Shown here: positions 3,440-31,471 of the stretch, piece after piece
Layout: each line of letters starts with the position of its first letter
Numbering within the stretch: the stretch's first letter is position 1
From: Whalleya microplaca
Lineage: Eukaryota; Ascomycota; Sordariomycetes; Xylariales; Xylariaceae
Length of the DNA stretch: 64,000 nucleotides
Reading direction: 5' to 3'
NCBI GenBank assembly: GCA_022497155.1
Contig: MU385710.1
Coordinates: 248,001-312,000 of the forward strand
Program-made: the position numbers and the translations under genes
Notes under the pieces: generated by a model
What the model was told of the DNA's origin: nothing
The model's input: only the letters and a program-made list of their open reading frames with translations
The model's database searches: none

Positions 3440-3711
3440 TTGATTCTAGTTGCGTGACATTAGGCTTACCTGGTGGGGAACTGTCTAACGATATTTTAAC
3501 CTTGTGGAAAATTCGCTGTGAACGTCAGTTGACAGGATCGCCCCTTTATATGAAACTATATCTCCTTTAAGCTCCTTAGTTACATAAGTTATAGTTCTAC
3601 TAATATGAGTTTTCGTACCTTAAAGTCGTAGAAAGTTTATAACAACCTAACTTAATCTATTCTTTTACTAGATTAAATCAATTATACTGGCCACACCAAG
3701 TCGCCCCTAAA

Positions 3712-5693
3712 TCATACTTCACCGTATACAGATTCTGGTTCCGGTTTTAAATTCAATCCAGCAAAGAACTTAACCAGTTCACTCGCCTCTTCCAGTTGAC
3801 ATATGACACTGATGTAGCCATCCGGTCTCAGAACGATCAAACATCCATCATCCTTGCTGATTCCGCACCTTTCATAAGCGTGGCCATGGCCATCATGGTA
3901 GCTTTCATCATCTGCATACACGGTCCAATAATTCCATCCATCTCTGTCATCCCAGGGCCAGAAAATAGGATGAAGGTTCATCAATTCGACATTGGCGCGC
4001 TTGGAGCTATGAATTGTGACAATCTCGATGCCTGAAGTCCGGGGTAATTGTACCTTGAACCATTTGCCTAGCTCAGCGAGACGAGCGAGAGAAGATTCCT
4101 TAGAGATGTTGCCTGCGAAGATGAGGACGCGGAAGCGACCGTCACAAGTGAATCGATGATATGCTCGGATTGGAACGCCGTCGGACTGATTTACCATCTG
4201 GAAGTCGGGTAGGCGCATCCCCTGAGCAAGCTTCGAGGCCAGAAGATGTGACTTGGTTTGCGGGTTTTTGTCCCTCACTATTAGGGAAGCTGGGTATCGG
4301 ATTCCGATACCTGTGGTAAATTTCTGTCCAGCAAGATATGCTGTCAGGAATTCATCGTGTCCAATATCGGTTCTTGCAAAGAATTCAAGGTATTCTCTAT
4401 CGAAATTGATGAGAGCTTGAGCGATTGGTCGTCGCTCATCCTGGTAGGTGGAGAGGAGTGACCGGTCGCAATTTTGTTCTAAACAGTAGCGCAATTTCCA
4501 ACCAATGTTGTATGCATCTTGAATGCTGGTGTTCATACCTTGGCCTGCCTTCGGGGAATGGGTGTGTACTGCATCTCCAACCAGGAAGATTCTGTCATGA
4601 CGAGAGAATTCGTCTGCAACTCGTTGACCAACACAGTACGCTGACCACCAGGGGATGCAACCTGCTTCAAGGGTATAAGGTGCCAGAATCGCCCTTGCCG
4701 CGTTGATGATACTCTCAGCAGTGACGCTTTTGGCATCTAGTGCGGTATGCCGATTGCCACCATCCATGCTGATATAAAACCGTACCAATTTAGACTCGCG
4801 TGGCACGCCCATAACGGTGCCACGAGTTGATCGGACTACGAAGACTTTACGAATATCTGGGAAATTAGTTTTGGGGACCATATTTATGACGCCTATTCAA
4901 ATGTTAGATATGACGAAATACTCAAGACTTGCATCGTAGGGGGCTACTCACCCCATGTTGAGTCTGTCACATCTCCTGCAAACACTATATCGAGATACTT
5001 CCTTAACCAGCTATGAGCTCCATCACATCCAACGATGTATTTCGCACCTATTATCTCCTGTGTGCTAGTGCAGGTATTCTTTAAGGTGACTGTGACTGGA
5101 TAGGCTTCTGGATCTTCTTTCGTTTCCATGCCGACTTGTAAATCGACTGGCTGCGTGTTCCAACTAACCTCGACGCTTCTATGCTTCTCTAGATTTTCGC
5201 ACATAAGACTTTCGACACGCCCTTTCCCATGAATAGTCAACAAAGATTTCTTGTAGCATCGAGCCGAGAATATATACCTTGGTCAAGAACCACCTCTCTG
5301 GGCTTCATTAGTTCCTCAACTCGATCCGGGATTATCAGCGATCGCTTAATCCTGCCATTGTTGTCCGGGTCCCATAGAACAATCTCCTCAAGGCGAAGGC
5401 ATTCATTGCGAATGGCATCGCCTATACCGAACGTGTCCAAGACTTCAATAGAAATACTTTTAAGACTATCTGCCCTACCAATCTTGACTGGACCCGCTTT
5501 CTTGTCGACTATTCGTACACGCAAATTTGTACCATTGAAGCAATTTGCAACCGTCAGGCTTTTTATCGTAAGTCAGTAAATGTAGAAATACTAAAGATAT
5601 GATAGGAAGGAGGTTGCAACTAGATGATATCACGTACCCTGCTGGGCCTGCACCGATGATCAGCACATCGACGTAATTATTTATCTTAGACAT
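3712..5693 (-). CDS. fsqG-like: FAD-dependent phenol 2-monooxygenase (FsqG-like)
   Basis: Four exons (5693-5638, 5558-5278, 5221-4952, 4892-3712) give 595 aa, a normal length for phenol 2-monooxygenases. The FAD-binding GxGxxG motif (GAGPAG) is split by the first intron and restored by splicing. The DG motif (VGCDGAHSW) and GD motif (LVGDAVHTHSPKAGQG) of aromatic hydroxylases follow in order, and the C-terminal third fits the thioredoxin-like dimerisation domain. The family hydroxylates phenols ortho to the OH group with NADPH and O2. Beside NRPS-like, N-methyltransferase and amine-oxidase genes it matches FsqG of the fumisoquin cluster, where it would convert a tyrosine-derived phenol to a catechol. 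It is the leftmost cluster gene. Family call is firm; the substrate is inferred. Confidence 0.85.
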
Positions 5694-6505
5694 AGTAGTA
5701 CGACTTTATGAAGGATAATCCATGGAGCTTCTTGCACCATACATATCGCAACAGATGACCGCCTAAAGTATACTCGGGAGGTCGTATTTTCGAGATAACA
5801 GGGCCTTGCCGTCCCGACCGACAAGTACTTGAACTCGCTGATACGTTAAGAGTTCGGGCATCCGACTTCAGTACCCACCTAGCCGAGCCGACTCCGAATG
5901 ATCGGCGTGAGCAGCCGCAGCGAGATAGAATATGCATTGATCATTATTTCTTACTTTAACAACCCTATGCAACCCCTTGGATCCAGTTAGCGACTTGCTT
6001 AAGTAAACGGAGGAGACTTATCGACGGCGTATGCAGCAAGTCAAGTTATATTCAAGTCCAGTTTTGTCTTAGTCAAGTCAGATCAAGGCGAGTTTTATGT
6101 AAACATGATTAGTTGTTAGCAATATGACTTTCTGTTGTTGCAATTATATAAATAAATATAAGTAACCTATAATGATAGCCTCTCGAGGATCCTAGTGATT
6201 GGTTGCTACCTAACGCCCTTTACTGTGACCATCGGTCAAACCCGACTACTTTCGCGTCTGTATAAGTCCCTTAATACGTTGATAGGTGAGTTTGCTGACG
6301 GGATTTCTTGAACTTGGAGGAGTTTTAATTGCTAAAACAAGTTATAAACATCATGAAGTCGAGTAAGAGTATCGAATTTGGCTGGGTTTGGGTGTACCCA
6401 AAAGGGGCTAGCCAATGTAACCTAATTTGTATTACATGTTCTCCCTCGCAATGTCTAATTTGAATGCTTTTCTCTACAAAGAGCCAGTCAAAAATGACCA
6501 TCCCC
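5694..6505. other. Intergenic region upstream of the monooxygenase
   Basis: No convincing gene. It holds the 5' flank of the FsqG-like gene (minus strand) and the 3' flank of the transporter. An 83-codon ORF at 5686-5937 has no recognisable features. Confidence 0.5.
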
Positions 6506-8631
6506 TTACAGCATGGCCGTCTTCTCCTTGTCCAGATGTCCGAAGATCAACCACGACAGCACCGTACTGATACCCATCAACCCGGCCAAGATAGAGTACA
6601 TAATCACCAACCGTGGATCCTCAGCTAATGGGCTGAGCGCCAAAGCCAGACAGCTACCGAAACCTCCCATGGCAAGCCAAATAGCCTGAACTAAGCTCTT
6701 CATGCTTTTAGGTGCTCTGTTATAAGCGTACTCTGTCCCCGTGGTGCAACAAAAGACGGAAGAAACCTCTCCAGCAAAGTAAATTGGGATCTGGAGGAAT
6801 ACGCTGATCTGGTTTGGCTGGTTGTTGCCTGCTGGACAATTGAGAGGGTAATTGAAGCATGGACCCGTGTTGTAGATGAGGTGCTGGACAACGACAGTAT
6901 ACGCCATTGTTAGCGAGAGAATTCCAAAGCCAACGGTGACACGGGCGATGGGACCGAAGCGGATGCGGCGGCGTGCGAGGAACGGGTAGAGGCCATTTTG
7001 AATTATAGGGGTGACGATGATACCTGCGATGGCGCCTGTGGTCTTCATCATATCGTTGGGAATTCCGTACGTGATCATCTGGCCGGCTTGGGAGATCAGA
7101 TTATTGAATGTCTGATTGAAACAAAGCCAGTATATCGGAAAAAGGAGACTGTGAGGTTTATCTGGTTAGCATACTTGGTCAACTATGGCATAATGGGTTC
7201 ATTGCGGCAGATTTGAACCTACAGCACGCGGCAAGTCAACAGACTAGCCTTAATCTCCTCAATAAAGGTATCGGTCCAGGCCACCACTCGGTTGTGCTGG
7301 ACAACTTGAGCTGCCGGTTTTGCTGCGTCCATTTTGAAGCCGCCCTTCACACCGCACCACAAAGCTGCCGCTGCTTGAGGCATAACATCCGCTGTCGGTA
7401 TCGCCCTTACTGTTTATATACGTTAATATAGCAACGTGATGGATTACATCCGAAACAAGACTTGCCAAACTTTGTCCTATCAAAGAGAATGGGCACAAAC
7501 GTCAGCCACATAACACAACATGGAACCAGATACGCAACCCAAAACCCAACGTATAGTTCTAGGAGTGGAGTGCAATCGGCAATCAGCCCTCCAACGTTTT
7601 CGGCCCTGTGGTAGTAGAGTTGATTAAGTATTCTGAAGCTTCTCTTGTTTACGAGACAGTCGAAGACTCACCAGAAGAAGGCATTGTAGATATACGTAAT
7701 TGTCAGTTCTCTGCTCGTTACAACTTTCTCGCCAGACTTCAACGTCTTAACACGAAATGCTGTTTCCTCATACTGGTCGGCTACAGGCAGGTCAATAACT
7801 GATTTCGAGCAGGGTTGGAATAAGCTTGCCTATGAAAGGAACGACGGTAGTCTTGAAAGCACCAGAGCCAACCGAGAGGAATACACAGGCGACAACCATG
7901 CCTGGCAGGCCAGCACCAGCACGAAGCGCCCCAGGCAGTGATGTACCAAACAGTATAGATGCTCCGATAGCTTCTATTCTATCACAATATTAACCATAAA
8001 ACGTGATCATTGATGTCGATATGTAACTCACACAGCTGACCAGAACATAGTTCTGTAGCGGCCAAGCGTATCTGCTACGACTGCAGCCGGGATTGGTGTC
8101 ATGTATGATGATATCATCAAGGCATTGACGATGTTAGAGGCCGCGGATTGGCCGAGCCCAAGAGCACCAGGAATCTTTCCTCCAGGGGCATGTTGCAGGT
8201 AGTTTTCTAGAACAGCCTCTTAATTGGACTACTCATGGCTATGATGCCTAGGTTGTGGCCACTTACGCAAGGGGGCAGTAGCACCATACCACACCAGTCG
8301 TTCACAGACACCCACAAAACATGCTACCCAGGTGCGAAATGGGATATTGTCGACAACATGTAGCAGATGTTCGACCTCGTATTCCGTAGCAACACGGCCA
8401 TCATCCGATTCTGTCGAGCCGACAGGTAGTTCTGATACGTGGGACTGTTCTCCTTGTGCTTGAGTTGTTGAAGAAGAGTCTTTCTCCGGGTCACGAAGTT
8501 GCCTGCCGGAAGGTGATTAGCATCAAATCGTAACTAGACAGCAGACGGCGAACAGGCACATACCTGGACAGTGCGGGAGCATGTTCAATGGCATTGCTCC
8601 CATCGCCAACAGGCTTCTGTTCTATCATCAT
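6506..8631 (-). CDS. POT/PTR2-family proton-coupled oligopeptide transporter
   Basis: Eight exons (8631-8564, 8502-8267, 8206-8032, 7978-7830, 7780-7672, 7605-7448, 7409-7223, 7148-6506) give 574 aa, normal for fungal PTR2 transporters. Family signatures include the N-terminal FRTWVACFVGVCERLVWYG segment, PFIADQY after the fourth intron, LKSGEKVV, and the C-terminal VQHLIYN and IYFAGEVSS regions, with many hydrophobic segments. The protein belongs in a membrane and carries peptides or related amino compounds with protons. Intron 4 (7829-7781) has a GC-AG boundary and intron 6 (7447-7410) is only 38 nt, but both keep the frame. Its position between the monooxygenase and the regulator suggests it moves a cluster product or precursor; the A. 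fumigatus cluster has an MFS transporter instead. Confidence 0.85.
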
Positions 8632-8937
8632 GAACAGTGATTACTCCGCGACTCCTGATGATTGACGCTCTGAACTAGGGATCTTTACATTAGGTATACA
8701 CTACATATATCAATTCAAATGCAAGAAGATAAAACAAGTCAGGATTAGGCATCAGCGAAAATTAGAAGAAGTCACGCCAATGAGCAATGGACTTGATCTC
8801 CATGCCAAGGTAAGAGAAACCAAAGTCAACCAGCTGTCTTTGATAGGAGTAAGAACGTAAAACTGTATAGATTTCGCTTTGTTTTCACCGCAACCCCGAG
8901 TTTTCGGGATTTTAGTCCTAACAAAGCTCGTACGTAG

Positions 8938-8983
8938 TACAAGATAGCTTTGCTTAGCTAATGTTTTCGGACCGAAAGACTAC
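8938..8983 (+). repeat. Dispersed repeat copy A
   Basis: This 46 bp stretch, from TACAAG to GACTAC, matches the reverse complement of 17393-17435 with a few substitutions and a short indel; the last 19 bases (TTTCGG...GACTAC side) are nearly identical. It may be an eroded mobile-element end or a conserved regulatory block. Confidence 0.5.
8965..8977. promoter_or_regulatory. Palindrome TTTCGGACCGAAA, possible Zn-cluster site
   Basis: A 13 bp palindrome centred on CGG-A-CCG, about 340 bp upstream of the transporter start. Zn2Cys6 proteins often bind paired CGG half-sites. The same core, with T in the centre, lies at 17399-17411 within a longer shared element. Binding is inferred only. Confidence 0.35.
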
Positions 8984-10569
8984 AGTATAGGGTGCATATA
9001 AAAGTCACTGCCGAGCTATGAAGAAATATCTAACAAGACGAGCTTATACTATATAAGGGTCATCTAGCAACAGGGGGTTTTCACTACATGGATTTATTTG
9101 AAGTTCCACTTTACATTCAGAACGTGTAGTCCAAGTCCCTGGTTGGCCAGTTCGCTCTCGCTTAAATACGGGGTATGCACCTTGGTCAGGGGCTCGGGGG
9201 ATAGGTTCCGCCGAAAGGATCTCCTATTATTTTGAGTTTTGCCGTAAAAGTCGCTTACCATTTCTTAGCTTGTATTAGCAGGGCTGGCACGTTGATATGG
9301 GCCTGGGCCCACGGTTCGGGGGGCTCTGCCTGCAAGCGACGATCATAGTCTACAGAATCATACCACTGGGTTGGCGGACCGGTATTAGACCCAGCTGGAT
9401 AGTCGATCCTCGTGGCGCTCATGCAACGCGGCTGAATCCTGATACCAGGATGCCAAAGAGACCAGAGCCAACCAGAGATTTCTCGGGGAGTATGGAAATG
9501 ATCAAAGTCCGTGCAACTCGCATACAGCACTGGCCCAAGTCTTTATTGACATCTACAAACAGACAGACAGATAGAGAAGTAGACGGAACCAAACTTCTGG
9601 GGGCGGCACCTGCTTCGTCAGATTGTAAGTGACACTGTTTTCCTTACAGCTATATATAATATCATTTCAGCTTAAAATGATGCACTAGAAACTGTTTATA
9701 CTTGCAACGCCGATTAACAAGTAATATAGCTTGAAGTGTCTGGTTCCCTTGAATAATAATTTTTAGATTCGAACGATATCATATGTGATATAATACCTCT
9801 TTCGAGCTTTCGGATCTAAGGGAGTTTAGCTTCTTAAAGGAATATTGCACCACCCCCGCGAAGTCACAGTTGCATTGCGCTAGTGTGTACGTAAGCCGAC
9901 ACAGCCCTATGCCACTGTTATTCCCGCCGAACAATGCCAGCTGAAGCTTGATCTAACCTTACTTTACACCCTCCTCAGGTCCATTGGGTTTCTATCCTTC
10001 CCTATGCCTCTACTATTCTACCAGATTGGCGGTGTGACGACTACCCCTAGTTATACTCTACTTCTATACGATACGCACTATTTTATTGTACATGTTTCTT
10101 CGCTGTAACTAAATGCTCTATCACCCGAATCACTTTGACTATCCCTTTCTCATAATTATACCATTGGACTGTGCCGCACAAGGACATACGGATTACTATC
10201 CACCAATGAAATGTAAATATTTCAGCATACCAACATATGACACCATATAGCGAGTAGACATTAATTCATTATCCAATGTTAGCCTCTGAATTCGTCATGA
10301 GAGTACGCTTTCTATTGCGTCACCTGGCTGGGCTGATCTCCCCGTGATGCCGCTGATATTAAGACATACCTACTAGCTAAAAGGAGCAAGATTAATTATG
10401 ACGACGATATTGAAGAGAGGAATAATCCATACGATAGGTAGAAACATTGGCAACTAAGGCTTTAAAGTAGTCAAATCTTATATGCAGGAATACAATAATT
10501 ATAACTAAGCTTGGATCATTCAGATATCGATGACGTGCTTGAGTTCATTCTTGAGCAGCACTTGCCCCT

Positions 10570-10608
10570 CCTTATTGAAACAAGGATTTAGACATTGTCT
10601 CAATAAGG
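10570..10608. repeat. Imperfect hairpin
   Basis: Two 14 nt arms (10570-10583 and 10595-10608) are complementary at 13 positions with an 11 nt loop. Function unknown. Confidence 0.5.
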
Positions 10609-11157
10609 GGCGAGCCCGCCAGGTTTTTTGGGTAATTGGATGATTGTAACCGTATGGAATCACACAGCTAGCCTTTCGTAAAGATGCGTACAGTACCTCG
10701 GGATACAGGCATTTTTTCGTACGAATAAAGCGATCGCTTCGGTAAAACCGGGTGCTGGTTTATTGTATACAGATAAATGCAATTCCTATCAGCACTAGTA
10801 GATCTCGCACTGTAAGCTCGTTGTCTCCCGCAGGCTAATAAAACTTCCAAGGCTTGGAAGAATATATAATATAGGAAACCCCAGCACAGGTGTACTTAAG
10901 AGTATCATTACGATTATTTGCAGTTGGAAATACCCCAAAAGACTTAACTAATAATAGAAAAAGCGTAAGTAGGGAAGTTTTATGGCTTGGGTAAGTATAA
11001 GAACAGGGTCGCTACCTTGATACTGTACACACACCAACATGCTAGTTAAGGAGGGATATCAGAAGATATAGTCTCAACAATGCATGTTAGCACTTGCTTC
11101 TTTCTTAGCGTTTAATTGCAACCTATCGTTTTGCATTGTATAATCCATATTCATGCA

Positions 11158-12699
11158 ATGGACATTGAGAATAATCGACGAGGTGCCTGTGATCGATGTC
11201 GTGGTCAAAAATTACGATGTGTGGGATTGGCGAACCCAATATTTAACTCCGGTAGTCGTTTTCAACGCAATGAGATACCATGTGAGCGATGTAAAAGAGC
11301 CAAAGTCGAGTGTTACAGTGTTAGACCTGCGCCCCGAAGGACGGCTACATCGGATAGAATCCATGGGAAACGAGCACAGGACCAACGCAGTTCAATAACT
11401 TCTCGATCTACCAGCCAAGCGGTCATTGGATCGAAGCCGCGACAAAATGATCAACCACCCAATTCAGAAAATTTACACGATGATCAAAGGAGCTATCAGC
11501 AAACTCAAGATATCGATGCATCATCCACAATGTCAACGATTCCAAGTGCATGGATTTCATACCCCGAGGAGGATGATACGGACAGGAATGAGTTGGGTCT
11601 GGAAGCACCAATCTGGACGCATGATTCGGTTCCTAATTTATGTCAAGATTCAGTGATAGACAACTTAGATGATCATAGCATCGTCGATCTCATGAACAAT
11701 GCTACGTCAGAGGGATGGAACTCTGACCACTTTGAAATCGATTCGAGCTTCGGCCAAACAGGTCTTGCTCGTCATACTCCGTCGAAAATACAAAAACAGT
11801 CAGGTTCTGACTACAGATCGAATGGCTCCAACCAAACACGCCGGCCGCCACAAAGGAATTCACAGAATCCCGAAACAACGAAGTCATGCATACAAGAACT
11901 TGTCAAGTTGAACGAGATGCTCCTACGTGAGAAGAGCAGCCTCGATGATCCATCAACACCAAAAAGTTTCGAATCCGGCGGACTCTCTATTGGGCAGATA
12001 CTACATAACTGCCAAGACTTCCTCTCGATTTTGCAGCGCCTCAGATCGTCATGTTCTAATTCTGAGTCTAATGGAAGTCTTACAGCAACAGAATGGTCAA
12101 ATTGGGACGAGAGCGAAATAGTGAACGGCAGCGTGAATCTACATCCATTATCACGGCATAGCATTAGCAGCAACGCAGTACAGTCTCGCTCACAGAAGGA
12201 CGCGTCCAGTTCTTCATCTTCAAGCAGATCCCTATCCGCATCATTGGCACCTGGTGGCCCATCTCTTGAGATTCCGACCCTGCTCTCGATACTCTCCTGT
12301 TATACATACATCCTTGAATCATACGATAATCTGTTTACACCTATTCTTGACGCTGTTACTGGATTGACGCCTACTATTCCAGCTATATTAAGTGGGCTAC
12401 GTCTTGACGGATTTGAGCTCGATGGTCATAATGCTCTCCAGTTACAGTGTCTGGTCAACGTAAGCTTTCATTTACTGGAGAAGATCGAGAATATCCTGGT
12501 TGGATCCCCAGGGCATGGAGGGCTCTTCAGTCAAGCCAGAGGAGGTTTACTTGGAGACAAGCTATTCGATGGTTTAATTGACGCACTGTACGACCAAAAT
12601 GAACAAAATTCCCACTCAAATAGCAATGGAAAGCGGGAGGTACGAGCCAAACGACTGATTCGCCAGATTCAAGCTGCGTTGAAAGCTATTGATTTGTGA
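11158..12699 (+). CDS. fsqA-like: Zn2Cys6 cluster transcription factor
   Basis: Intronless ORF of 513 aa from the ATG at 11158; the open frame extends 14 codons upstream but without an ATG. The N-terminus holds a Zn2Cys6 DNA-binding domain with spacing C-x2-C-x6-C, then about 20 residues, then C-x2-C-x6-C (ACDRCRGQKLRC ... CERCKRAKVEC). The middle loop is longer than usual, and a basic tail follows. The centre is Ser-rich and low in complexity. The C-terminal segment (about 370-460; LLSILSCYTYILESYDNLF) resembles the helical region of AflR-type regulators of secondary metabolism. As the only regulator inside the cluster it probably controls it, in the role given to FsqA; orthology is not proven by sequence alone. 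Confidence 0.8.
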   Translation: MDIENNRRGACDRCRGQKLRCVGLANPIFNSGSRFQRNEIPCERCKRAKVECYSVRPAPRRTATSDRIHGKRAQDQRSSITSRSTSQAVIGSKPRQNDQPPNSENLHDDQRSYQQTQDIDASSTMSTIPSAWISYPEEDDTDRNELGLEAPIWTHDSVPNLCQDSVIDNLDDHSIVDLMNNATSEGWNSDHFEIDSSFGQTGLARHTPSKIQKQSGSDYRSNGSNQTRRPPQRNSQNPETTKSCIQELVKLNEMLLREKSSLDDPSTPKSFESGGLSIGQILHNCQDFLSILQRLRSSCSNSESNGSLTATEWSNWDESEIVNGSVNLHPLSRHSISSNAVQSRSQKDASSSSSSSRSLSASLAPGGPSLEIPTLLSILSCYTYILESYDNLFTPILDAVTGLTPTIPAILSGLRLDGFELDGHNALQLQCLVNVSFHLLEKIENILVGSPGHGGLFSQARGGLLGDKLFDGLIDALYDQNEQNSHSNSNGKREVRAKRLIRQIQAALKAIDL

Positions 12700-13252
12700 C
12701 AGTGTACAGTAGAACATAGTTACGGTTGTTCATTTGTGTGGATTTTTTTCAGATAGGTGGACCATTCATACATTGGTCAAAAGTAACGACTACGCAGAAT
12801 TATAGGCGGCACATAATTAATAGTATTGGGTTGTAGTCAAGATATACTTCCTTCCGCAGCACTAGTGGGCGCCGTAAGCATGTGAGACATTTTCCACGAC
12901 TTCATAGTAAGTAATTATAAATCATACAAACATAACTAGAATATAGCCTGCTCTGGTTATGTGCATCTGAGGCACGTCCGTGGTTCAAACCATGCAAAAC
13001 AACACACTAATGCTGTTAGACTGTTGGTCCTTTGATATCAAAACAATTAGGCAAAGTCAGATCAATCACTCAAGTCACAGTCTTTGCCAATATATTTATG
13101 CAGTAACGAAACGCAAGGCATGCTTCAGGCTTCCCTACTTTAACATTAGAAAAGGCGCTAAGATGAGCAATGAGTTACTGTTCTCGTGTCATTTCCGGCT
13201 TCTTTTGCTTCTGTTGATACCTCTTTCTCTGATTTTGCTCTGCTATGAGAAG
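12700..13252. other. Intergenic, convergent 3' ends
   Basis: The 3' flanks of the regulator (plus) and the FsqB-like oxidase (minus). No gene seen; the 104-codon ORF at 12980-13294 has no features and overlaps the oxidase 3' end. Confidence 0.5.
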
Positions 13253-14804
13253 CTACATCGGAAACCTCCAGATGTGACACAATTCCTCCAGTGAAGGATT
13301 CCAAGTCTGTAATGCAGGCAATGCTGATGCCATACCACGACCATATAGCGCTATCGCGACCACCTTTTCTCCAATGATAGGAAGAAACTTAAAAGCATGG
13401 TCACCCCCGCCAGACGCAACGAACAAGCTCTTGCCGTAAGCAGGATGGTAGTCGACGATAAAATCCAAGGACGGTGTGTCTGTATACCAGCATTTGCGCA
13501 CCTTTATGAACGGTCGGTTTGCAATACTGCTGAGGATGTTGTCACCCTTTGCATGGTTGAAAGCAGTAATTCCTTCGAAAGAGGATGGACCTAAAAGTTC
13601 CAGGAGGAACAGACGATAATCGGCCAAAGTTTTGTGCATTTTCTCACTTTCGTAATCTTCCACATCACCACGATCAGACAAAGGAACATCCCCTCCCCAA
13701 CCAAAGTTAGGATTGGTCCACTGCTGGCCAATACTAGTTTCTGGTATGTCCGTTTGAGGGCCAAGTACGATGCCAGCACTACGTAGCACGTCAACTATAC
13801 CACTCTGGGAGAAGTGACCGAGCTTCAAACGGTTGTCATGGTCGGGGCCAACAGAAAAGACGCCACGATGGGCATTGACGATCAAAGGCCAGTTTCTGCG
13901 CTTCAACTCGTTACACTCATCTTCGGAAAGCTGGATATAGGCGACTACATCGCTGTAAACATCTAGAAGATCCGGCATGCCTAAGAGGCGTGGCGTGTGG
14001 CTGCCAGCTGCAATTATCGTCAATTCAGCAGTGAGTACGTCCCCATTGTCGAGTCTGACACCTTGAACTTTTTCATTGTCGCTTGTGAATACAAGACTCT
14101 CTACTTGGCCTGTGAGAGTTTCGACATGACCAAGGCGGATCACTTCTTGACGTAGCCATTCGATACTTGCCCCAGCCTCAGCCCAACCGCAATCATCAGA
14201 AATATAGCCCCGCAAGTTGTTGTTCTCCTTTTCTACCTTCCTAGAGAGTGACGGTGGTAGACTGGAAGAGATACCGAGCTCTGAGCGTATTTCACCAAGA
14301 GAGTCGACGAGTTTCAGGCCGTCTTTGCCATTGGGTGTCATCTCACAACTAAGGGCATATGCGTCCTTTATGTAGTTGATAGTTTCCCCATCTCTCTTTG
14401 GACTCTCTAGCGAGGAGCCTTCTGCAGAGAATAACAGTCTCTGTTCAACATATCGACCGTCTTTTCCCCACTCAGCTCGCCAATGTCGACGAGCCTCACT
14501 TGCAAGGGCAGCATATGGACCATGTGGATAGTCACGGCGAATGACGCGAGTAGTATCTGCATTTGCTGCCCCTGGGTTCCGAACTGAACTCGTTGCGGAG
14601 GCTTGTTCAAAGTTCCAACGATCTAGTAGCACTATCTTGGTGTCTGCAAATGTAGCATCACGGCTCATAGCATAAGCCGTTGAGACTTACACACAGGTGT
14701 TAGCATATGTTCTTTCAACTGCATAGTGTGCTCACCATGGTGAGGATCAGCTTACGGCCAAAGACACCCGATCCAACGATGATAATAGATGCAGGACAAG
14801 CCAT
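13253..14804 (-). CDS. fsqB-like: FAD-dependent amine oxidase of the DAO/MSOX family (FsqB-like)
   Basis: Two exons (14804-14756, 14685-13253) give 493 aa. The short first exon carries the dinucleotide motif (IIIVGSGVFG), and splicing restores the usual GVFGLSTAYA. A Cys near residue 415 in the CWYTDTP motif matches the Cys that holds FAD covalently in monomeric sarcosine oxidase, fructosyl amine oxidases and FsqB (Cys414 there). A GGGDHAFKFLPIIG motif near the C-terminus completes the flavin site. FsqB oxidises an N-methyl amine so that the aromatic ring can attack it and close the isoquinoline ring. The gene is divergent from the N-methyltransferase across a shared 646 bp promoter region, which fits consecutive steps. 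A fructosyl-amine oxidase is the alternative if seen outside this context. Confidence 0.85.
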
Positions 14805-15450
14805 CTCGAAAAACTATGTGTCTCGATGCCTAATCACAAGGTTCAGATTGCGCAAGATCGATATATCTAAACAACAGTATCTCATATAGTTCCATGGTTT
14901 CAGTCTTAACTAGATAGCACGAAATGATCCAAACTAACTACTAGGCGAGCCTCCGCTACAGCATCGGAAATCACACTTCCCGATACTGTCGATGCCGACA
15001 TGCCGATACCGAAACTCTGAGGCCGAAACATCATCCCGAACGTAAATGATGCAAAGTGAATGACCCAAGTGCCTGGCAAGTCAGCCGTCGAGATCTGGTC
15101 CGGGAAGAGTAACTTGACAAAGGAGTTTTCTATATTGCTAGCTCTGGTAAGACCGATGAGACACTTGGCATGGATCAAGGACTGCGTAACAAGCTGCGAA
15201 CATTCAAATGCTTTTAGTCGGTCCGAGTGAAGTGATGAATTTTTCCGTACGCCTACAAGGCCCTCACAGAAAAGAATGAAGGCAAGAACAGGGATGTTGC
15301 ACAACAATATGTTTCCGTGGTGGCAACCTCACTTGTGACCAAACCTGTATTATCTTCTGTGTTCTATTTCTACATAGACTAGATATCACGCCCAATCACA
15401 GTTCGCACCTCTGATACTGACATTTGCTTGATCTAAGTTCATCAATCGTC
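14805..15450. promoter_or_regulatory. Shared divergent promoter region, fsqB-like/fsqC-like
   Basis: This 646 bp gap separates the starts of the amine oxidase (minus) and the N-methyltransferase (plus), so it must hold both promoters. A 133-codon minus ORF (14906-15307) fills much of it but has no recognisable domain. Confidence 0.55.
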
Positions 15451-16658
15451 ATGGCTACTACCCTCAGAATCAGTAGGGATGCACAGTATAGGTCACTAAT
15501 CCTGAGCAATGATGCCTTCAAAGCAGAGACACCTTCGTCTAGCAAAAACGTTCGCAATGTTGAACGAATTCAACTACACGATATTCGGCGACAAGATACC
15601 GCTCAAAATCTAGTTCCATGTATTATGGATGGGCTAAAGTCTGAATGCAGAGAGTCTCCTCCGCTTTTATTGTGGAACGATCGTGGTCTATCACTGTTTG
15701 ACGCAGTCCTGGACTCTCCGGATTATTACCCTGCCACGCGAGAATGGTCAGTGTTGCATAATGCTGTCAATAGAATAGCCCACTCAATATCCTCTGGCGA
15801 CCGAGTGATAGAACTTGGTGCTGGGTAAGTAATAAAATTTCTTTGAGCGAAAGTCTTCATGTGTCACCCGTTTGCTTATGAACGTCGTTCACAGGAACAT
15901 GAAGAAGACCGCACTTATTCTGCAAGCACTGCAAGCCCAGAAAAAGCACGTTCAATACTTCGCATGCGACGTTGACCGTTCTGCTCTGAGAAGAGGTATC
16001 CGTGGTCTGCAAGCAATGTTTCCGGTGACAAGTTCGGATATCAAGATACAAGGTCTTCTGGGAACTTACGAAGACTGTGCGGCCTGGCTTAAATGCAACC
16101 ACAGCAATTCCCACACATCTTTACTATGGCTTGGGAATAGTTTGGCCAACTTCAGCCCACAAGAAGCATCGGAATACATTCGAAGCTTTATCAGCAGCGG
16201 TTCATCCATGATCATTGGCTTGGATGGTTGCCAAGATCAAGAGGAAATTTCACGTGCCTACGAGGGACAGTGTAACCAGGAATTCATTCTCAATGGACTG
16301 CCACATGCGAATCAGCTGTTGGGCACGAATGTTTTCAATGTAAATGATTGGGAATATGTCGGTAGATGGAATTCTGAGTTATGGATGCATGAAAGTCTTT
16401 ACGCTGCTCGGAAAGATCTTACCCTCACTGTCTGTGGTGAGACATTCCACTTCAGAAAGGGGGAAACGATGCGCTCCATCAGAAGTGGCAAGTGGCCCAA
16501 GATGAAGGTAATGGAAATATGCCGAGATGCTGGTGGAAACGTGATGGATAGTTGGATGAGCCGTGACGCATCTTACGGTAATTCGCTCGTTTTCACTTGA
16601 ATCCCGACTCATGTGCTAATTTATTTAAACAGGTATATATCTAATTAGCGGTAACTGA
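15451..16658 (+). CDS. fsqC-like: SAM-dependent N-methyltransferase, EgtD/EasF family (FsqC-like)
   Basis: Three exons (15451-15824, 15895-16577, 16633-16658) give 360 aa; the tiny last exon adds a family-typical GIYLISGN ending. The start is the first ATG (15451); an in-frame stretch upstream lacks ATG. The protein belongs to the histidine-specific methyltransferase family that includes ergothioneine EgtD and the ergot-alkaloid enzyme EasF. Signatures are LVPCIMDGLKS, LLLWNDRGLSLFDA, the SAM motif VIELGAGNMKKT (split by intron 1), LLWLGNSLANFSP and MIIGLDGCQD. In the fsq pathway FsqC N-methylates the intermediate before FsqB acts, analogous to plant coclaurine N-methyltransferase. The neighbours support that role; the exact substrate cannot be read from sequence. 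Confidence 0.85.
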
Positions 16659-17392
16659 GAAGCTTTTATCGTACATACATACCTTACTTCCTTTTGCTTT
16701 CTTATGTTTAAGTTGTTTCCATGACGCCAGAATCTTACGCACTCAAGCATTGGATAATCCATGATGGCATTTTGATTAGGGTTGCACAACCAATTATGAT
16801 ATTATAGTTCTGGTGCCCAATTTTTTTGATATAGTAAGATAACGTGAATAGAGTAACGAAACTACAATGCCCATATCTACATGTGTAAGCTAGCTCGAGG
16901 ATAACGACGTTTCCATGAACTACGATGCACTTCAAAAACCTGCCATATATATTTCAAAAAATGTCACCCATCACCATGAAATATCGCATGCAACAAATCA
17001 AGTAATGTTTCAGGTTCTCGTTAAGTGATATGTTGTGACAGTATTCTGATGGATCTTGGTGGTCAAGTGTTAGTTACCCCTAAGGGCTGACCATTAGCAA
17101 TAGTACTTACTATGGCAGGATTATTGGTGTGTGATTAACTAAAATCAAAATATATATTCAGCTGGGTCAAATGGCCATTGAAATTTGATGCATTTGCTGT
17201 CCGCCATGTATATTCAACACGGCCAGGTGAACACATGTGCGTCGGCATATGCGTGCCTTCTATCATCCTCAGTATCTACTTCGGTATTATATTACGGTGG
17301 ACGCATGACATGGAAACATAGAATAACAGGAAATTGTTTCTGCAAAACCTACACCGACAACCTCGGCCTGGTCGCTCATGTCCACGAACGCC

Positions 17393-17435
17393 GTAGTCTT
17401 TCGGTCCGAAAGTTAGGTAAGCAGAGCCGCTTGTA
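17393..17435 (-). repeat. Dispersed repeat copy B with palindrome
   Basis: In reverse orientation it matches 8938-8983. It contains the 15 bp palindrome CTTTCGGTCCGAAAG at 17398-17412. Together the copies flank the regulator, oxidase and methyltransferase as inverted repeats about 8.4 kb apart. Confidence 0.5.
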
Positions 17436-17801
17436 TTTCTGAGCGACGCCGAAACCCCGAAAGCTTCAACACGATCGGTCTCAGTCCACTTTGCTTCTTT
17501 ATGGCAACACCACACATTAAGTAATATTACCACAAGTAGGAATATCGACTGCTTGTTTTGGCGGCGTTAGCGGCATTAGCGGCGCTACTGCACGTTTTCG
17601 GCCCGGATATCCTAACACTTTCGGACCTCACATAGGTACCGCACCAACGGTCATTGTATTGGCTTCACTGCACGGTAAATGAGGCGAGGTCATATGCAAG
17701 GTTGAAAACATATGATTTTGGATGTATCTAGCAGTACAGACGCACATCAAGGTATTCTTATGTTCAGTCTCTATCTTTCGGTTTACGGTGTCGCTGAAAG
17801 A

Positions 17802-17827
17802 GGGGGGGTGAGGGGGGGTGAGGGGGG
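17802..17827 (+). other. G-rich tract, G-quadruplex candidate
   Basis: Three runs of six or seven G separated by TGA. Long runs could be split to supply four strands of a quadruplex. Purely structural inference. Confidence 0.4.
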
Positions 17828-19765
17828 ATGCGGTAATCAATTATCGCTCGTGCTAGTCTACTCTTCGAAACTTATAGTTAACAACACTTGGAGATTACCC
17901 TTCGAAGTCACTTCATACGTAGTACTCATAGGTATTTATATCATCTTGGGAGTACGGATAACATGTTATGTGCATGAAGCCTTAGCAGCACTGTAAGGCT
18001 AATCTGATCACGTATCAAGATGCTCGACAGAGAGAGAGACTCGGTTTTTATTACGATGACGGTATCTGCTCCTTTCTTCATCTTGCACTGAATAAACTAT
18101 AGGCTTCATTATAGTGTTACATTGACACTAAAGATACCTATCAGTAATGTATTTGGTCATAGTAGACCCTGATAATTGCATACACCGGGAACCTGATTGG
18201 ACGGTTACTGGGACATTTACTGTGACGTATGTGAGAGCTTATGAATACTCTTATAACAGCCTGGCAACTCTTTTGAGCTATCGGATGCGATGCGGATACT
18301 ATCGCTGAGTCGAAACGCTTACCTAAAGTGACTTACAGATGTCTTAGTCAATCTTGAAAGTATTCAAATGAGACTTCATGCGATAAATGGCTCTGTGTTT
18401 GCAGTTTAACAATGTGTATAGCGGTTACTAGGGAGTATGCGCGTAGCCTTGTAGGGAGGTCCGGATCCACCTCCAACCATTCCCCTTTGTTTCTTCAATA
18501 CCTGATGCGGAACCTCTAAGGTTTTTGAATGCAGGCCCTGCATCGTAAATGATATTCCCAGGAGCTTTTTCTGCATGCTAGATGGCGTTGAGACCCGGGC
18601 TGTGAGGTAAGTAGTCAAATACCCCTATTTTGTGGTCCTCCAGTCAATCTAGTGGCTCCCACGCGATGAATTGCAGTCCCGTATTACTTGGACAAGCCGC
18701 CGATTCGTAAAATGAAATCGGTTCCTGTACCATAACAACGGTATAGCCTTGTGACAAGATGCCTACGTGTGATGTTTCCGGATCCCTCTCCACGGCCAGG
18801 AGCAGACTATCTCGGGCGGCTTCTACCTCGCGATCCTAGATCATAGGCAAGAGTACAATAGAGAATAGAGTGTTGACATGTGCTCTACCATTGAATTACA
18901 TCAACGATATTAAGACGGGAATATAAACACCCTAGCAAACGGTCAATTCATTGATAAACGTCTTGAACATATCTGATTGGGAGAGGGGAGGGCAAGCACT
19001 CGTAGAACGAAAGGCTAACATCTGTGTCGTTTTCCGCTCACATAATTCTTCCCTCTGGGCGTCATTTCTTAGCTTTTTGGTATATGGTCTCGATAGAGAA
19101 TATGGGCTCTAGCTTCTGACGCGGCCATCGTGGACCCTAAGTCAACTGAATGATATCCTACTCACCTTCTCTGCGTTTAAAATGGCTACCTGTTGTATAT
19201 AGATTGCCTTGAAGTTACCTATTGACTGGGTAGTCTCTCTCACGCTCTGTCTCTTGGTGCCAAATGCGTCTTGGATTAATTGGGGGCCTGTAGCGACATT
19301 ATCACAGCAGCCTCAAGGGTATTTGCCTTTATTAGAGCATCGCCTTTTAGATATTGTAGTATTGATGGCGATGCTTTGAAAGAAAGGGGTCGCGAAGCGT
19401 CGGTGGGGCACCGCCGAGACCTGACTTTGGGCTAAATGATTACATGATCTAATTGGTTGATCTCAATTCCCGACAGCGTATTCCAGTGCACTCAAGGCAC
19501 ATTGTTTTCAGCTCGGCAGCATCCTTACAGCTACCTTGGTTCAATCCATCAACAAGGTGAGGTCGCTATTCCGAATGGCCCCCCGAACGCCGATATACAA
19601 AGTGTATACCGAATCGTAGGCCATGATCAGGATTTGAAGTCGGAACACGTTCAAAAGAGAATAATATAGGATGGCGTTCTCTTATCGACAGGTTCAGAAT
19701 GGCCGTAGTGCTAGTTGCCAATCGTTCTGCACAGCGGCGGTTACTGATACTGCTTTTGCTGCAAT

Positions 19766-22700
19766 ATGTTTTCACAAGACCCTTCTCATCATATCCAGCT
19801 TGATGATGTCAAAAATGCCCTCTCAGACATCAATGGACATACCCGACAGCCTTCACGGCCGGGAAGCGTCCTTGGTATAGACATCCCGTCAACACACCTG
19901 CCCGTGCTGGTCCCAAAGTCCGATCGGAACGATCGCACGGTCGGATTAGCAAAGTCTCTGTCTTCTGCGTCAATGGATGCGTCGAAATCAACGGTAGAGC
20001 AACAGACCATCTTGATCAAGACTTGGGCTATACTGCTACATTTATATGCAGTGTCTGACGCGGTTGCCTTTGTAGTCATTGGCAAAGCGCTCGACCCAGA
20101 ATCTTCAATTGCAGAGGCACATATTCAACTAGTTCTGTCACGCTGGCCCGCCGCCTCTTCGTTGACGCAAGACAATGATCCTCAACTATCATTCAGTCCA
20201 TTCGTTCCCTCGAAGCATAGTAGCAAGATCAACACGGCTGTCAACTTCGCTGATATTTATCACGGCAATGATGATTTCAGCTACGTCCTTCACTGGTCCG
20301 ACGAAGGTGCCGCTGGCCTTAGTCTGTACACTCAAAGGCCATCGGTACCCCCCAAATTTGCATCTGCTCTGTGGAGTACTCTTCTGGAGGTCAATCGGAT
20401 CATCAGAAGGACAGATCCTCGTGAGCTTCGCAAAAGCTCCATCAGTAGGGCAGATCAGGCAGCTATTCGTTCTTTTCTCCCTAATCCGCTTTATGAAGCA
20501 CGGCTATGTCTACACCAACTTTTCTACAGATCTGTTCGAGCTGCCCCTCACGCTACTGCTGTACAGGCATGGGATGGAACTCTCACTTACGCAGAATTGG
20601 ACAAGCTTTCAAACAATGTGGCAAGCCAACTCATACGTGCAGGTGTGCAGAAGCGCCAATACGTCCCTTTCTCCTTTGAGAAAAGCATGTGGATGGTTGT
20701 CGCCCTGCTTGGTATTTTAAAAGCTGGCGGAGCAGTTGTCGCGATTGATCCTTCGCAGCCACAGGCTCGGGCTCAGGAAATAGTTAGGGAGACACGTTCC
20801 AATGTGGTTGTGGCCTCTGTTTCTCAGTCATCCAACTTCGCAAAGTTTGTTGATACAGTCTTACCAATCTCGTCGAACACCGTGCAGAGATTAGATAATG
20901 ACATTGGTACAACACTTCCTCAAGTACAGCCTGAAGACCCTGCCATGATCATCTTCACATCAGGATCAACAGGAAAGCCGAAAGGAATAGTCATTGAGCA
21001 TGGCGCTGTCTCAACTCGCATGGTGGCGGAGGGAAGAGCTTTCCAGTACCAAGGAGCAAGAACGTTACAATTTGCTGCATCAACATGGGATATTTTCATG
21101 ACAGATGTGTTCACGACTTTGACATTCCAGGGCTGTGTCTGCATCATGAATGAAGAAGACCGAAGGTTCAACCTCCCAAAATTTTGCACGGACAACAATG
21201 TCTCCTTGGCGCTGATTACTCCAACGCTCGCGAACCTACTAGATCCTGCCACGCTTCCAACACTTAGGACCCTTATCTTCGGCGGGGAAGCCCTAAAGGA
21301 TGATGTCCTTCGGAAATGGTCAGCGACCAAGGGACTTGCACTCAATCAGGGTTACGGTCCAGCGGAAACGGGACCTTGTATTGCTGGACATGTGGCTGAC
21401 CGGCCAGAGATTCTAGGATATGCACTAGATAATTCAGTTTGCATGCTTGTTGACCCTAATAACCATGATAGACTGGTCCCCCTTGGAGCAGTCGGAGAGC
21501 TCGTTGTTGGTGGACCAAGCTTGCTTCGAGAATATATCAACAACCCCGACAAAACTCATGCTGCTGTGATTGAGGACCCTCCTTGGTCATTTGACCTGAA
21601 CATCCCCGTGAGACGGTTCTACAAGACTGGCGATCTGCTTCGGTACAGCATCAGCACACTGGATGGCCGATTGGAGTTTGTCGGTCGCACAGACGATCAA
21701 GTCAAGTATCATGGCCAACGTATCGAGCTTGGAGAGATTGAACATCAATTGAACAACCTACCTGGGATCGTCTCATGTATGGTAACTCTAGCCAAGAGCG
21801 GCTATTTCAAGGACAGACTGGTAGCTGTTGTCCAATGCAACGGACGCAGCAGCCCTCATAGCTTTCCCCAGAAGCTCTCGATACGGTATGATGCCAATTT
21901 GACGATCTCTGAAGTCAGACAATTCCTATCATCGCGATTGCCGGAATACATGATTCCCAATGAACTCCTTGTGGTCGATGAAATGCCCCACAATGCTTCA
22001 ATGAAGCTTGATAGAGCTCTTGTCAACAAGTGGATCTCTGACATGCAGAGTGCGTCTTCGGAGTTGGTCGCCAAACAGCCCAAACAGGGCAGAAGATTGC
22101 TTGCTCACGAGTCCACTGCGAGAGAAATAGCAAGAGAGTACGCTCGCATTGTAGCCAAGGATGACGGATCCCGTCGCAAAGCATTCGAAGAGCTAGACTT
22201 TAACTTGCAGTCGGGCGGTATTGATTCCATCCAGATAATGTCCCTCTCTATGGTTCTAAACAGACGTTATGGAGTTCAAATCCCAATGGATGAATTGCTT
22301 AGCTCGAGATCAACCGTGCGATCAATCGCCTCGATCATTGATGCAGGAAATATTGATCATACCGAGCTTGGACAAGAGCAACCTATTGACGTCCAAGATG
22401 AGGTTAATCAACAACTCCAATCCATTGACTCTATCTTAGAACAAGATCTTATCAGATCCGATGTTAGCAGAGTCTTTCTCACGGGGGCTTCCGGCTTCCT
22501 AGGCACCGAAATACTACGACAGCTACTCGCTCGTTCGAATTGTCATGTCTATGCATTAGTCAGAGGATCATCAGAAGGAGATGCTCAAAGACGCTTAATT
22601 CAAAGAGCAACGGCAGCTGGGTGGTGGCAAGACACATATCTAAATAGACTCGACGTCTGGCACGGTGATCTATCAAGAGCACAACTTGGATTGAATAAGA

Positions 22701-24957
22701 CTCAGTGGCAAATGCTGCAAGCCCAAGTATCCCCGAGCATTGACGCTATCATCCATAATGGTGCTAAAGTTCATTACCATCTGGACTATGACAGTATCAA
22801 GACAACAAATGTCGCACCAACAATCGAGTTGCTAAAAGCAATCAACAGTCGTCAGGAGCCACTGCACAGTTTTGTGTTTGTATCTGGAGGGCAGCAACTC
22901 AGCTTCGACGACAGAGATGATATCAAGTATGCCACGAAGGCCATCAATGAATCCGGCTATGGGCGTTCGAAAGTGGTGTCCGAGCTCATTGTCAAGAGAT
23001 TTGCCGAACAGCAGGACTCGAAGGCACAACACGTCCGAGTGATCAAACCGGGATTCATCATTGGTGACTCGGAGCGTGGTGTTGCAAATCAGAATGATTT
23101 CATCTGGAGGCTTATCGCTGCTTCTATTGAAATTGGATGCTACAACGATGATGATATAGAAAGTTGGATATTCGTTGCAGACGTCAGCCGTGTATCGCAG
23201 ATCATTCTACAAAGCGTGTTTGAGGAAGACTGCAAACCAGTCACGAAGGTACTGGATGGCATGAGGCTCAAGGATTTGTGGGCACTTCTCGAACATAAAT
23301 TTGGCTACGACCTCCAGCCCCTGAGTCGACAACAATGGCTAGCTCGACTTCGACAAGATATTGCGGTCAAACAAGAGAAGCACGTCATGTTCCCACTAAT
23401 ATATATGCTTGAAGACAATGATGAGCCGATAGGCGTGCCAAACGGACCTTTACACGCAACCGCGGGGGTTCAGGCCGCAATTGAAGCGAACATCGCCCAG
23501 CTCATCAAAGTCGGTTTTCTACTTAAACCCGCCTTGGTAACGACTCCCACGACCTCAGAAGATAGTGCAACCGCGGTAACGGACGCTATTGATGTGCAAA
23601 GCGTGCGCAAACATTTTCCAGCTTTGCACCACGGAATCGTAGCCTTCAACAATGCCGCCGGAACGGTCGTACATCAAGGTGCCATTGAGAGCACACATAA
23701 GTATATGTCCTCGTTTCCTATCGAGCTGGGTCGTGATGATCCACAGAGCCACGAGAAGACACAGCGCCTTGATAATAACTACGCAGAACTTGCTGCATTT
23801 ATGAATGCCTCTCCTGATGAGGTTGGTAAGTCACTCAAAACTTTGCTATGGTCTGGCTCTACGATCTAGTGAAACTCGCTTAGAATAATCGAGATCGTTC
23901 TGATTCGATAATTCTAAGATGAGCTGTCAATGTTCACAAGTCTTCGTTTCGATTATTTCGGTTGTGTATGACTGACTCTTGGATAGCTTTTGGACAAACT
24001 ACCACCCTCCTTCTGCGATCTCTTGGCCAAGCGCTGCAACCACTGCTCAACTCTGACTGTGAGATGGTCGTATCTAATCTTTGCCACGAAGCCAGTGCTG
24101 CGGCATGGGTTTCGCTAGCGAAGGCCCTGAATATAGCCATCAAATGGTGGGCACCACCACCAGGCGATGACCCATGTCTATCCCTAGAAACACTGAAACC
24201 ACTCTTGACCCCCAAGACGCGGATAGTCACCTGCAATCATGTCTCGAATGTCGTCGGCACGATCCATCCCATACGTCAAGTCGCAGACATGGTCCATAGC
24301 ATTCCCGGCGCCATCCTGATCGTAGACGGGGTTGCGTATGCACCACACCGGCCCATTGATGTCAAGGCTCTGGACGTCGACTTCTACTGCTTCAGTTGGT
24401 ACAAGGTCTTCGGCCCACACATCGCACAGATCTACGGTCGACGCAGTGTGCAGAAGCGAATGCTGGCAGGTATAAGCCACTACTTTCTTGCTGACATACC
24501 CGGGTTTGACTGGCGTTTGCGACTGGGTTCCAATACTTTCGAGCTCGAAGAGGCCCTGGTATCGGTTGCCCGCTACCTGGGCCAAGTAGGCTGGGACAAG
24601 ATGATAGCCCAGGAGATGGTGCTCCAAGACACGTTCTTGGCCTATCTCAAACGCCGGCCGCGAGTGTTCCGCGTCTTCGGCGAGAAATCGTCGGATCCTA
24701 AGAAACGCGTGTCGGTGATCACATTTCGAGTTATCGGGCGTTCTTCGACGGAGGTAGCGAACAGGATCTGCCAGAGGGGACGATTCAGGGTCGTGTCAGG
24801 AAATTGCTGGGCTCCAAGGCCGACGCACGATGTGTTGAAGCTGGACGAGGACGGTCTGATCCGCGTTAGCTTCGTGCACTACAATACTGTCGCGGAAGTG
24901 CGCGAGTTCTGCAAGGAGATTGATTCGGTGTTGGATTCTATGAAAGCGGATAATTAG
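19766..24957 (+). CDS. fsqF-like: NRPS-like enzyme A-T-R-PLP aminotransferase (FsqF-like)
   Basis: Two exons (19766-23825, 23987-24957) around a 161 bp intron give 1676 aa. Residues 1-230 resemble a condensation-domain remnant without an active site. The adenylation domain (about 245-700) has IIFTSGSTGKPKG, GYGPAETGP, YKTGDLLR and the A10-region Lys. The carrier domain has the phosphopantetheine Ser in GGIDSIQIMSL. The reductase domain (about 890-1220) has TGASGFLG and the SGYGRSK (Tyr-x3-Lys) site. The C-terminus is a class V PLP aminotransferase-like domain with the cofactor Asp (IVDGVAYAPHR) and Lys (SWYKVFGP). There is no functional condensation domain. This order is that of FsqF, which joins two amino-acid units by a C-C bond. 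The cluster core; the substrate is not determined. Confidence 0.9.
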
Positions 24958-29260: not shown

Positions 29261-29768
29261 CTTGATTGTGGAAGATATTGTTCGAACAATGTAAAATGTT
29301 TAATTTTAAGGCTAGCGAAAGTTTTCCTTTGGTATAGAGAAAATGTCGGTAGTGTCGTGGTGTCTTGCAAGGTAGTAAGATGTCAAGAGCTTTGTTTAAG
29401 CAAGATCTCAACCCCAGATATGAGTGGTAGGTTAGGTAAGCTTTGAACACACGTATCTTTGATTCGTTGATACAATGACCGTTAATTTTCTTGAACAAAG
29501 GCAGGAGGTCAGGTTCATGTTGGTGGTGGCCATGATTAAATGTTGTCGTAAGGGGCTAGGTAGACGCAAGGGATGATAGTACCGCGTAGGTACCCTCCAT
29601 TAGTATTCACCAAATTGAGATTACAGGTACCTTTTAGGTACCTGTAGGGACCTATGTACTACCACCTCACCTACATGTAACAAAGTGTTTATATATCCAT
29701 GCAATTACGCGTATCTGCACACTAGAACTCGAGGAAACATGCATAATCTACTCCTAAGTGCTTGCTAC
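29261..29768. other. Intergenic with a perfect hairpin
   Basis: No gene. Contains a perfect 10 bp inverted repeat with a 3 nt loop (29623-29645) built on GGTACC. Confidence 0.5.
29623..29645. repeat. Perfect hairpin built on GGTACC
   Basis: Arms ACAGGTACCT (29623-29632) and AGGTACCTGT (29636-29645) pair fully around TTT. Similar GGTACCT palindromes recur in other gaps of this window (near 25235 and 51200). Confidence 0.6.
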
Positions 29769-31277: not shown

Positions 31278-31471
31278 GGCTGTCCAAAGAAGAACAAAGC
31301 AAGATACGATTTATAAGTAAATGATCACGACGACACATGAGGACACAGGGGAAGACGAGCATTTGCAATGGGCGGGGAATGGGGAAGAGAACAAGACATT
31401 CTCTTGAGCTAACGCAAGTATGTGACCAACATTTCATTTCGCGGTCCAACATGCATCTCAAGACGTATGCA

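Follow-up and report, generated by a model that had tools for sequence, protein, structure and literature searches.

Does the stretch of Whalleya microplaca (Xylariales) DNA studied here, 64,000 nucleotides of contig MU385710.1 (hereafter the window), carry a fumisoquin-type (fsq) gene cluster for a plant-like isoquinoline alkaloid, and is there reason to expect a new product from it? A first-pass annotation had read five gene types together at positions 3712-24957, namely a phenol 2-monooxygenase, a Zn2Cys6 transcription factor, an MSOX-type oxidase with the cysteine for covalent flavin attachment, an EgtD/EasF-type N-methyltransferase, and an enzyme resembling nonribosomal peptide synthetases (NRPS) with adenylation, thiolation, reductase, and pyridoxal phosphate domains (A-T-R-PLP). 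It had concluded that the cluster is of the fumisoquin type and that its product may be new. All five types are indeed present with open frames and, judged by sequence comparison, the interval very probably holds an intact fsq cluster. The pathway itself is a known one, of which this is a new copy with modest differences; the novelty of its product is unproven and at most possible.

From left to right, six open-frame genes occupy the interval (table 1): an fsqG-type gene (-), a transporter gene of the POT/PTR2 family (-), the factor (+), fsqB (-), fsqC (+), and fsqF (+). All cluster introns are GT-AG, save POT intron 4, which is GC-AG. Across the cluster, Pfam recognizes FAD_binding_3 with Phe_hydrox_dim, PTR2, DAO, Methyltransf_33 and, in FsqF, the series AMP-binding, PP-binding, NAD_binding_4, and Aminotran_5, in keeping with the A-T-R-PLP architecture first proposed.

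Kinship of FsqB, FsqC, and FsqF

Compared with solved structures, the predicted FsqB aligns over its whole length with 6gg2, the A. fumigatus FsqB structure deposited under the name FmpA (661 bits; 290/473 identical positions, 61.3%), whereas the 19 other solved sequences matched (E up to 1e-5) reach at most 68 bits, with fructosyl-amine oxidases best among them. Fifteen of the 16 active-site or nearby residues named in PMC6222107 are kept, including R63, R66, Y121, K304, D315, C414, Y416, D444, and K448; the sole change is Ile284 to Leu. The protein retains the cysteine for the flavin link, C414, together with the catalytic Asp444, Lys304, and Arg63/66.

The putative N-methyltransferase, FsqC, passes the EasF-family model TIGR03439 (351 bits, cut-off 206) and fails the EgtD model (169 bits, cut-off 291). 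Among solved structures, six of the seven matched sequences are EgtD (76-82 bits), the seventh being DisA (22 bits). Its best named matches are Lepidopterella (80% identity), FL0662B (77%), Conoideocrella (68%), A. fumigatus (63%), and Clonostachys rhizophaga (57%), and a quick tree of 16 rows places it with these five relatives in a six-row group (SH-aLRT, the Shimodaira-Hasegawa-like approximate likelihood ratio test, 99); it is, accordingly, an EasF-family enzyme closest to the fsqC proteins. No named W. microplaca entry for FsqC occurs among 52 matches in the deposits; one protein, P0123, matches at 100% over 65% of the length and probably represents the second exon.

The FsqF model, once spliced, equals a deposited W. 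microplaca "putative nonribosomal peptide synthase" at 1676/1676 residues. We compared it with proteins chosen from the best 120 of 2757 matches, giving a tree of 23. Over aligned positions it is 77.2% identical to the protein of Xylariaceae sp. FL0662B, 70.5% to that of A. fumigatus A1163 (on 1477 aligned positions, the gene model there being shorter), 69.5% to A. udagawae, 66.4% to Tricladium, 62.6% to Clonostachys, 58.4% to A. bertholletiae, and 54.1% to Fusarium NPS16. In the tree, 15 rows including Whalleya and A. fumigatus are split at 100/100 from the other eight (A. bertholletiae, P. freii, Fusarium, and kin, A. pseudonomiae included). Within the former, Whalleya pairs with FL0662B (88/88), with Tricladium added at 94/97; both values stay below the program's mark for firm support, and Tricladium and Conoideocrella form long branches. 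The adenylation-domain pocket, read at nine positions numbered after GrsA, is AAWLIGGPC in 13 of the 15 rows, Whalleya and A. fumigatus agreeing at 9/9, and AAWI[V/I]SG[G/S]C in all eight rows on the other side. Tricladium (P0005, SAWLIAAIC) and Conoideocrella (P0017, AAWLIGGFI) are the exceptions, and their enzymes may load a different substrate. The T-domain serine, the reductase Y-x-x-x-K, and the PLP lysine motifs are kept. FsqF is therefore a condensation-less A-T-R-PLP enzyme that groups with A. fumigatus FsqF. The A. udagawae protein of this comparison (P0003) is deposited under a misleading name, leptomycin B resistance protein pmd1.

For fsqG and the factor, assignment follows family and cysteine pattern, the comparison with A. 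fumigatus counterparts having covered FsqB, FsqC, and FsqF. The FsqG-type protein scores 223 bits with FAD_binding_3 and 182 bits with Phe_hydrox_dim, and its best solved relatives are the phenol 2-monooxygenases 1pn0 (419 bits) and 1foh (415 bits); a frameshift suspected after "VVLDQG" proved to be a 56-base intron. In the factor, six cysteines read directly from the sequence stand in the order CX2CX6CX20CX2CX6C, while its Zn_clus match is subthreshold (E 0.023), the 20-residue loop being perhaps the reason for the weak score.

Second copies were sought by querying the 48.1 Mb genome with single exons. The next-best places were C27 for FsqB exon 2 (89 bits, 33%, plus a 64-residue piece, 387-450, at 56%), C30 for FsqC exon 2 (102 bits, 33%) with a piece on C12 at 42%, C11 for the last fsqG-type exon (211 bits, 43%, among 19 matches), and C7 for the FsqF PLP exon (252 bits, 43%); those for FsqB, FsqC, and FsqF fall far below the cluster genes. 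The last was considered as a second FsqF-like gene and set aside: the PLP open frame there (stretch-relative 8407-9438) has no adenylation or reductase frame recognizable by eye beside it.

Linkage of these genes elsewhere was judged from equal size of the longest contig, a measure that is weak for contigs of several Mb. FsqF and FsqC relatives occur on equal-sized contigs in FL0662B (77,659 bases), Conoideocrella (64,788), and Clonostachys rhizophaga (994,443), which suggests that the two genes share one contig in each.

Missing genes and other readings of the locus

Several points weigh against an intact fsq cluster. Matches to the ATP-grasp profiles of the FsqD families, PF13535 (one place in the genome) and PF18130 (two places), lie on contigs C44 and C14 only, with none in the 64-kb window; likewise, none of the 45 ABC_membrane matches found genome-wide, the profile looked for on account of fsqE, falls within it. 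According to PMC5999785, the clusters of A. fumigatus and Clonostachys rosea include both fsqD (ATP-grasp) and fsqE (ABC transporter). Moreover, the comparison with A. fumigatus was limited to three proteins and to the forward direction, and the function ascribed to the cluster is read from sequence.

In the gap between fsqC and fsqF, the longest stop-to-stop frame is 96 amino acids, the four frames submitted gave no Pfam match, and no ABC_membrane match was found. When the C14 ATP-grasp fragment was used as a tblastn query, it matched 26218-26547 (E 3e-4), a hit that was absent in one run with the E-value limit at 0.01 and returned with the limit at 1; since this stretch is the antisense strand of a HET gene and contains stops, we take the match as chance. 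Gene names and locus numbers lead us to assume that the A. fumigatus order runs from A to G, with fsqD and fsqE between fsqC and fsqF. On that assumption the new gene order announced by the first-pass annotation is so in part: fsqG has moved to the left of fsqA, with the POT gene adjoining, but A-B-C-F is kept as in A. fumigatus, the place of D and E being a 3.2-kb gap. Given that gene order says nothing on product and that the pocket matches A. fumigatus FsqF at all nine positions, the step from order and transporter to a new product is unsupported. The absence of fsqD and fsqE, on which the first-pass annotation is silent, is a better reason than gene order to expect a difference.

Could the genes belong to a different pathway altogether? 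Chance might have brought a fructosyl-amine oxidase gene together with an EasF gene of the ergot type and a stray gene for an NRPS-like enzyme, and domain calls alone are indecisive on this point, since FsqC fits the EasF model and FsqB is a DAO-family protein. We reject such an assembly because FsqB scores far higher on 6gg2 than on any fructosyl-amine oxidase; the FsqC and FsqF relatives on equal-sized contigs in three named genomes and the placement of FsqF with A. fumigatus in the tree speak in the same sense, and the coincidence is scarcely credible. An imizoquin-type (imq/NPS16) cluster, a type that lies in section Flavi, would have the same A-T-R-PLP architecture and broadly the same enzyme set. 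FsqF, however, stands outside the A. bertholletiae, A. pseudonomiae, and Fusarium side, with another pocket code; that this side is to be called imq is our assumption, the tree holding no reference imq protein. We consider an imq identity very improbable.

A further possibility is that the cluster is decaying or silent, the loss of fsqD and fsqE beside an AT-rich, repeat-mutated region preventing completion of the pathway. The two genes missing from the window, the fsqC-fsqF gap, and a left flank with indices like those of repeat-induced point mutation (RIP) are what such decay would leave. Against this, all six frames are open, no active-site residue examined in FsqB or FsqF has changed except FsqB Ile284, the RIP-like stretch ends before the cluster, and the transporter is retained and groups with the POTs of FL0662B and Tricladium. 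Decay seems to us unlikely, and we retain the reading of an intact fsq cluster.

That intact cluster could still belong to a distinct branch. Conceivably, though we hold it doubtful, the Xylariales and Leotiomycetes share an fsq branch without clustered fsqD, in which a gene outside the cluster or different chemistry provides for activation of the tyrosine partner, a POT protein replaces the ABC pump, and the final compound is distinct from the fumisoquins. As an example of such chemistry, the PLP-bound nucleophile might capture the tyrosine partner directly.

The formation of tyrosyl phosphate by FsqD is itself a proposal, not biochemically characterized as of a 2025 paper (PMC12568646). A cluster without fsqD in place is a natural test of the need for this step; should FsqD prove dispensable, the way in which the carbon-carbon bond is proposed to form would need revision.

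The two genomic ATP-grasp genes have neighbors of their own. At C44:278500-288400, one (stretch-relative 3560-5518) is flanked by a radical SAM gene, of the KamA/2,3-aminomutase family with every NCBIfam match below cut-off, and by another POT transporter gene; this locus may be a different cluster, or it may encode a substitute for FsqD. The second, at C14:493500-503400 (stretch-relative 4255-6250), adjoins apparent acyl-CoA synthetase and MFS transporter genes, as read from their frames.

Transporter, palindromes, and surroundings

The transporter type does differ from that of A. fumigatus, as had been noted at first pass. Our POT model agrees with a deposited W. microplaca protein (P0173) at 566/568 residues, the mismatch lying at the intron 6 junction, which is uncertain by two residues; identity to the FL0662B relative is 78%. 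In a survey of the 11 other genomes named both in the FsqF or FsqC lists and among the best 120 of 179 POT rows, a POT relative was found on an equal-sized contig in six: FL0662B (77,659; with FsqF and FsqC), P. coprophilum (336,432; FsqC), Tricladium (753,591; FsqF) and, as weak cases on contigs of 2.6-5.0 Mb with FsqC, P. taxi, Phlyctema, and Cladobotryum. In the remaining five (Clonostachys rosea, A. lentulus, A. udagawae, A. alliaceus, and P. atrosanguineum) no equal-sized contig was found for POT, some rows of these genomes possibly stemming from different assemblies. A quick tree of 26 proteins from the 120 listed joins the cluster POT with those of FL0662B, Tricladium, and Lachnellula (93), apart from the other close POT of W. 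microplaca (P0200), with the Penicillium, Phlyctema, and Cladobotryum proteins in another part. It is thus probable that, within this branch, the POT gene accompanies the cluster, and the different transporter would therefore be a feature of the branch rather than a peculiarity of the W. microplaca genome.

A CGG palindrome, picked as a motif after the sequence was read, offers a possible link between this gene and the factor. TCGGNCCGA occurs three times in the 64 kb against 0.57 expected (2/100 shuffles reach three), and all three sites (8967, 15218, and 17401) fall in intergenic DNA of the cluster; within the five intergenic regions, 0/200 shuffles reach three. The site at 8967 is in the region common to POT and the factor, 2.2 kb from the factor start, and that at 17401 is 2.4 kb from the fsqF start, while none lies upstream of fsqG. 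The half-site TTTCGG/CCGAAA is present 14 times in the same regions against 3.1 expected (0/200 shuffles). The longer TTTCGGNCCGAAA is little commoner in the genome than a control pattern (25 places in 48.1 Mb vs. 18). The cluster holds two of these places, separated by 8.4 kb, and no other listed pair is so close on one contig. As a lead, then, the factor may also control the POT gene. The AflR-type motif TCGN5CGA was tried and is not enriched (one seen, 1.13 expected).

To the left of the cluster, AT-rich DNA (GC 0.22-0.31) with RIP-like dinucleotide ratios covers window positions 1-2000 and C1:240001-249000 (C1 is the contig to which the window belongs) and ends just short of the cluster, with an AAA+ ATPase fragment on its edge (2909-3439). 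No open reading frame of 130 amino acids that might extend the cluster leftward was found in C1:240001-249000. On the right, the HET gene (25476-26999) is followed by a short-chain dehydrogenase gene (28700-29260), an FAD_binding_4 domain (30831-31310) whose frame continues to 30064, and another NRPS-like enzyme (32534-35011) with carrier and reductase domains and its N-terminus further right. The genes at 28226-35011 are probably a separate small cluster.

Table 1. Predicted genes and sites of the probable Whalleya microplaca fsq locus, in window coordinates
Feature	Position	Strand	Details
FsqG-type phenol 2-monooxygenase	3712..5693	-	595 aa, 4 exons: 5693-5638, 5558-5278, 5221-4952, 4892-3712
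POT/PTR2 proton-coupled transporter	6506..8631	-	568 aa, 8 exons
Palindrome TTTCGGACCGAAA	8965..8977		~0.33 kb upstream of POT start; candidate factor-binding site
Zn2Cys6 transcription factor (FsqA position)	11158..12699	+	513 aa, intronless
FsqB amine oxidase (MSOX family)	13253..14804	-	493 aa; exons 14804-14756, 14685-13253
TCGGTCCGA	15218..15226		Shared fsqB/fsqC promoter
FsqC EasF-family N-methyltransferase	15451..16600	+	359 aa; exons 15451-15824, 15895-16600
Gap between fsqC and fsqF	16601..19765		3.2 kb, no recognized gene
Palindrome TTTCGGTCCGAAA	17399..17411		Between fsqC and fsqF
FsqF NRPS-like A-T-R-PLP	19766..24957	+	1676 aa; exons 19766-23825, 23987-24957 (161-base intron)

A proposed pathway and known fsq systems

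Fumisoquins are built from serine, tyrosine, and methionine, and the published proposal has dehydroalanine act as the nucleophile on a tyrosine phosphate ester (PMC6222107 and PMC6943532). The same papers describe the oxidation of the N-methyl group and ring closure by FsqB, demonstrated on N-methyl-dopa. FsqC is taken to carry out the N-methylation and FsqG the phenol hydroxylation, in part from gene annotations in PMC5999785. For the Whalleya cluster, the DNA displays directly the genes with their domains, how FsqB, FsqC, and FsqF are related to other proteins, the active site of FsqB, and the pocket of FsqF; every reaction and its place in the sequence of steps, the substrate, and the roles of transporter and palindrome are inferred. 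By analogy, FsqF would load onto its T domain an amino acid, which in A. fumigatus is serine, and its PLP domain would generate a dehydroalanine-type nucleophile that could form a carbon-carbon bond with an activated tyrosine; FsqC would perform N-methylation, FsqG would yield a catechol, and FsqB would oxidize the N-methyl group and close the isoquinoline ring. The factor would turn the cluster genes on and the POT protein would move the product or a precursor. All core enzyme types of this scheme appear to be present in the cluster except the proposed tyrosine activator, which would have to come from outside the window, perhaps from one of the two unlinked ATP-grasp genes or another enzyme.

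The cluster adds a Xylariales genome, that of a fungus living in wood, to the fungi with a plant-like isoquinoline route, a route that the abstract of Baccile et al. 2016 is said to suggest for diverse fungi. Our literature search found no paper joining Whalleya microplaca with Xylariales biosynthetic gene clusters, which is no firm ground for calling the locus unpublished. The A. bertholletiae and Fusarium NPS16 side shares the A-T-R-PLP architecture at 53-58% identity to FsqF, yet lies on a separate side of the tree and has another pocket code; Cladobotryum is assigned an imizoquin-type match in a cluster table (PMC10989895). The A. fumigatus fsq cluster shows 61% (FsqB), 63% (FsqC), and about 70% (FsqF) identity, the same A-T-R-PLP order and pocket, and matching factor and monooxygenase types; unlike it, Whalleya has a POT transporter, and neither fsqD nor fsqE was found in the window. 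Outside Aspergillus, an fsq-like cluster is already published from Clonostachys rosea (PMC5999785), which resembles ours in core genes and pocket code (FsqF 62.6%) but differs in holding fsqD and fsqE and, as gene numbers suggest, in order. A further counterpart is the FL0662B locus, where FsqF (77%), FsqC (77%), and POT (78%) relatives on contigs of one length, 77,659 bases, probably represent the same type of cluster.

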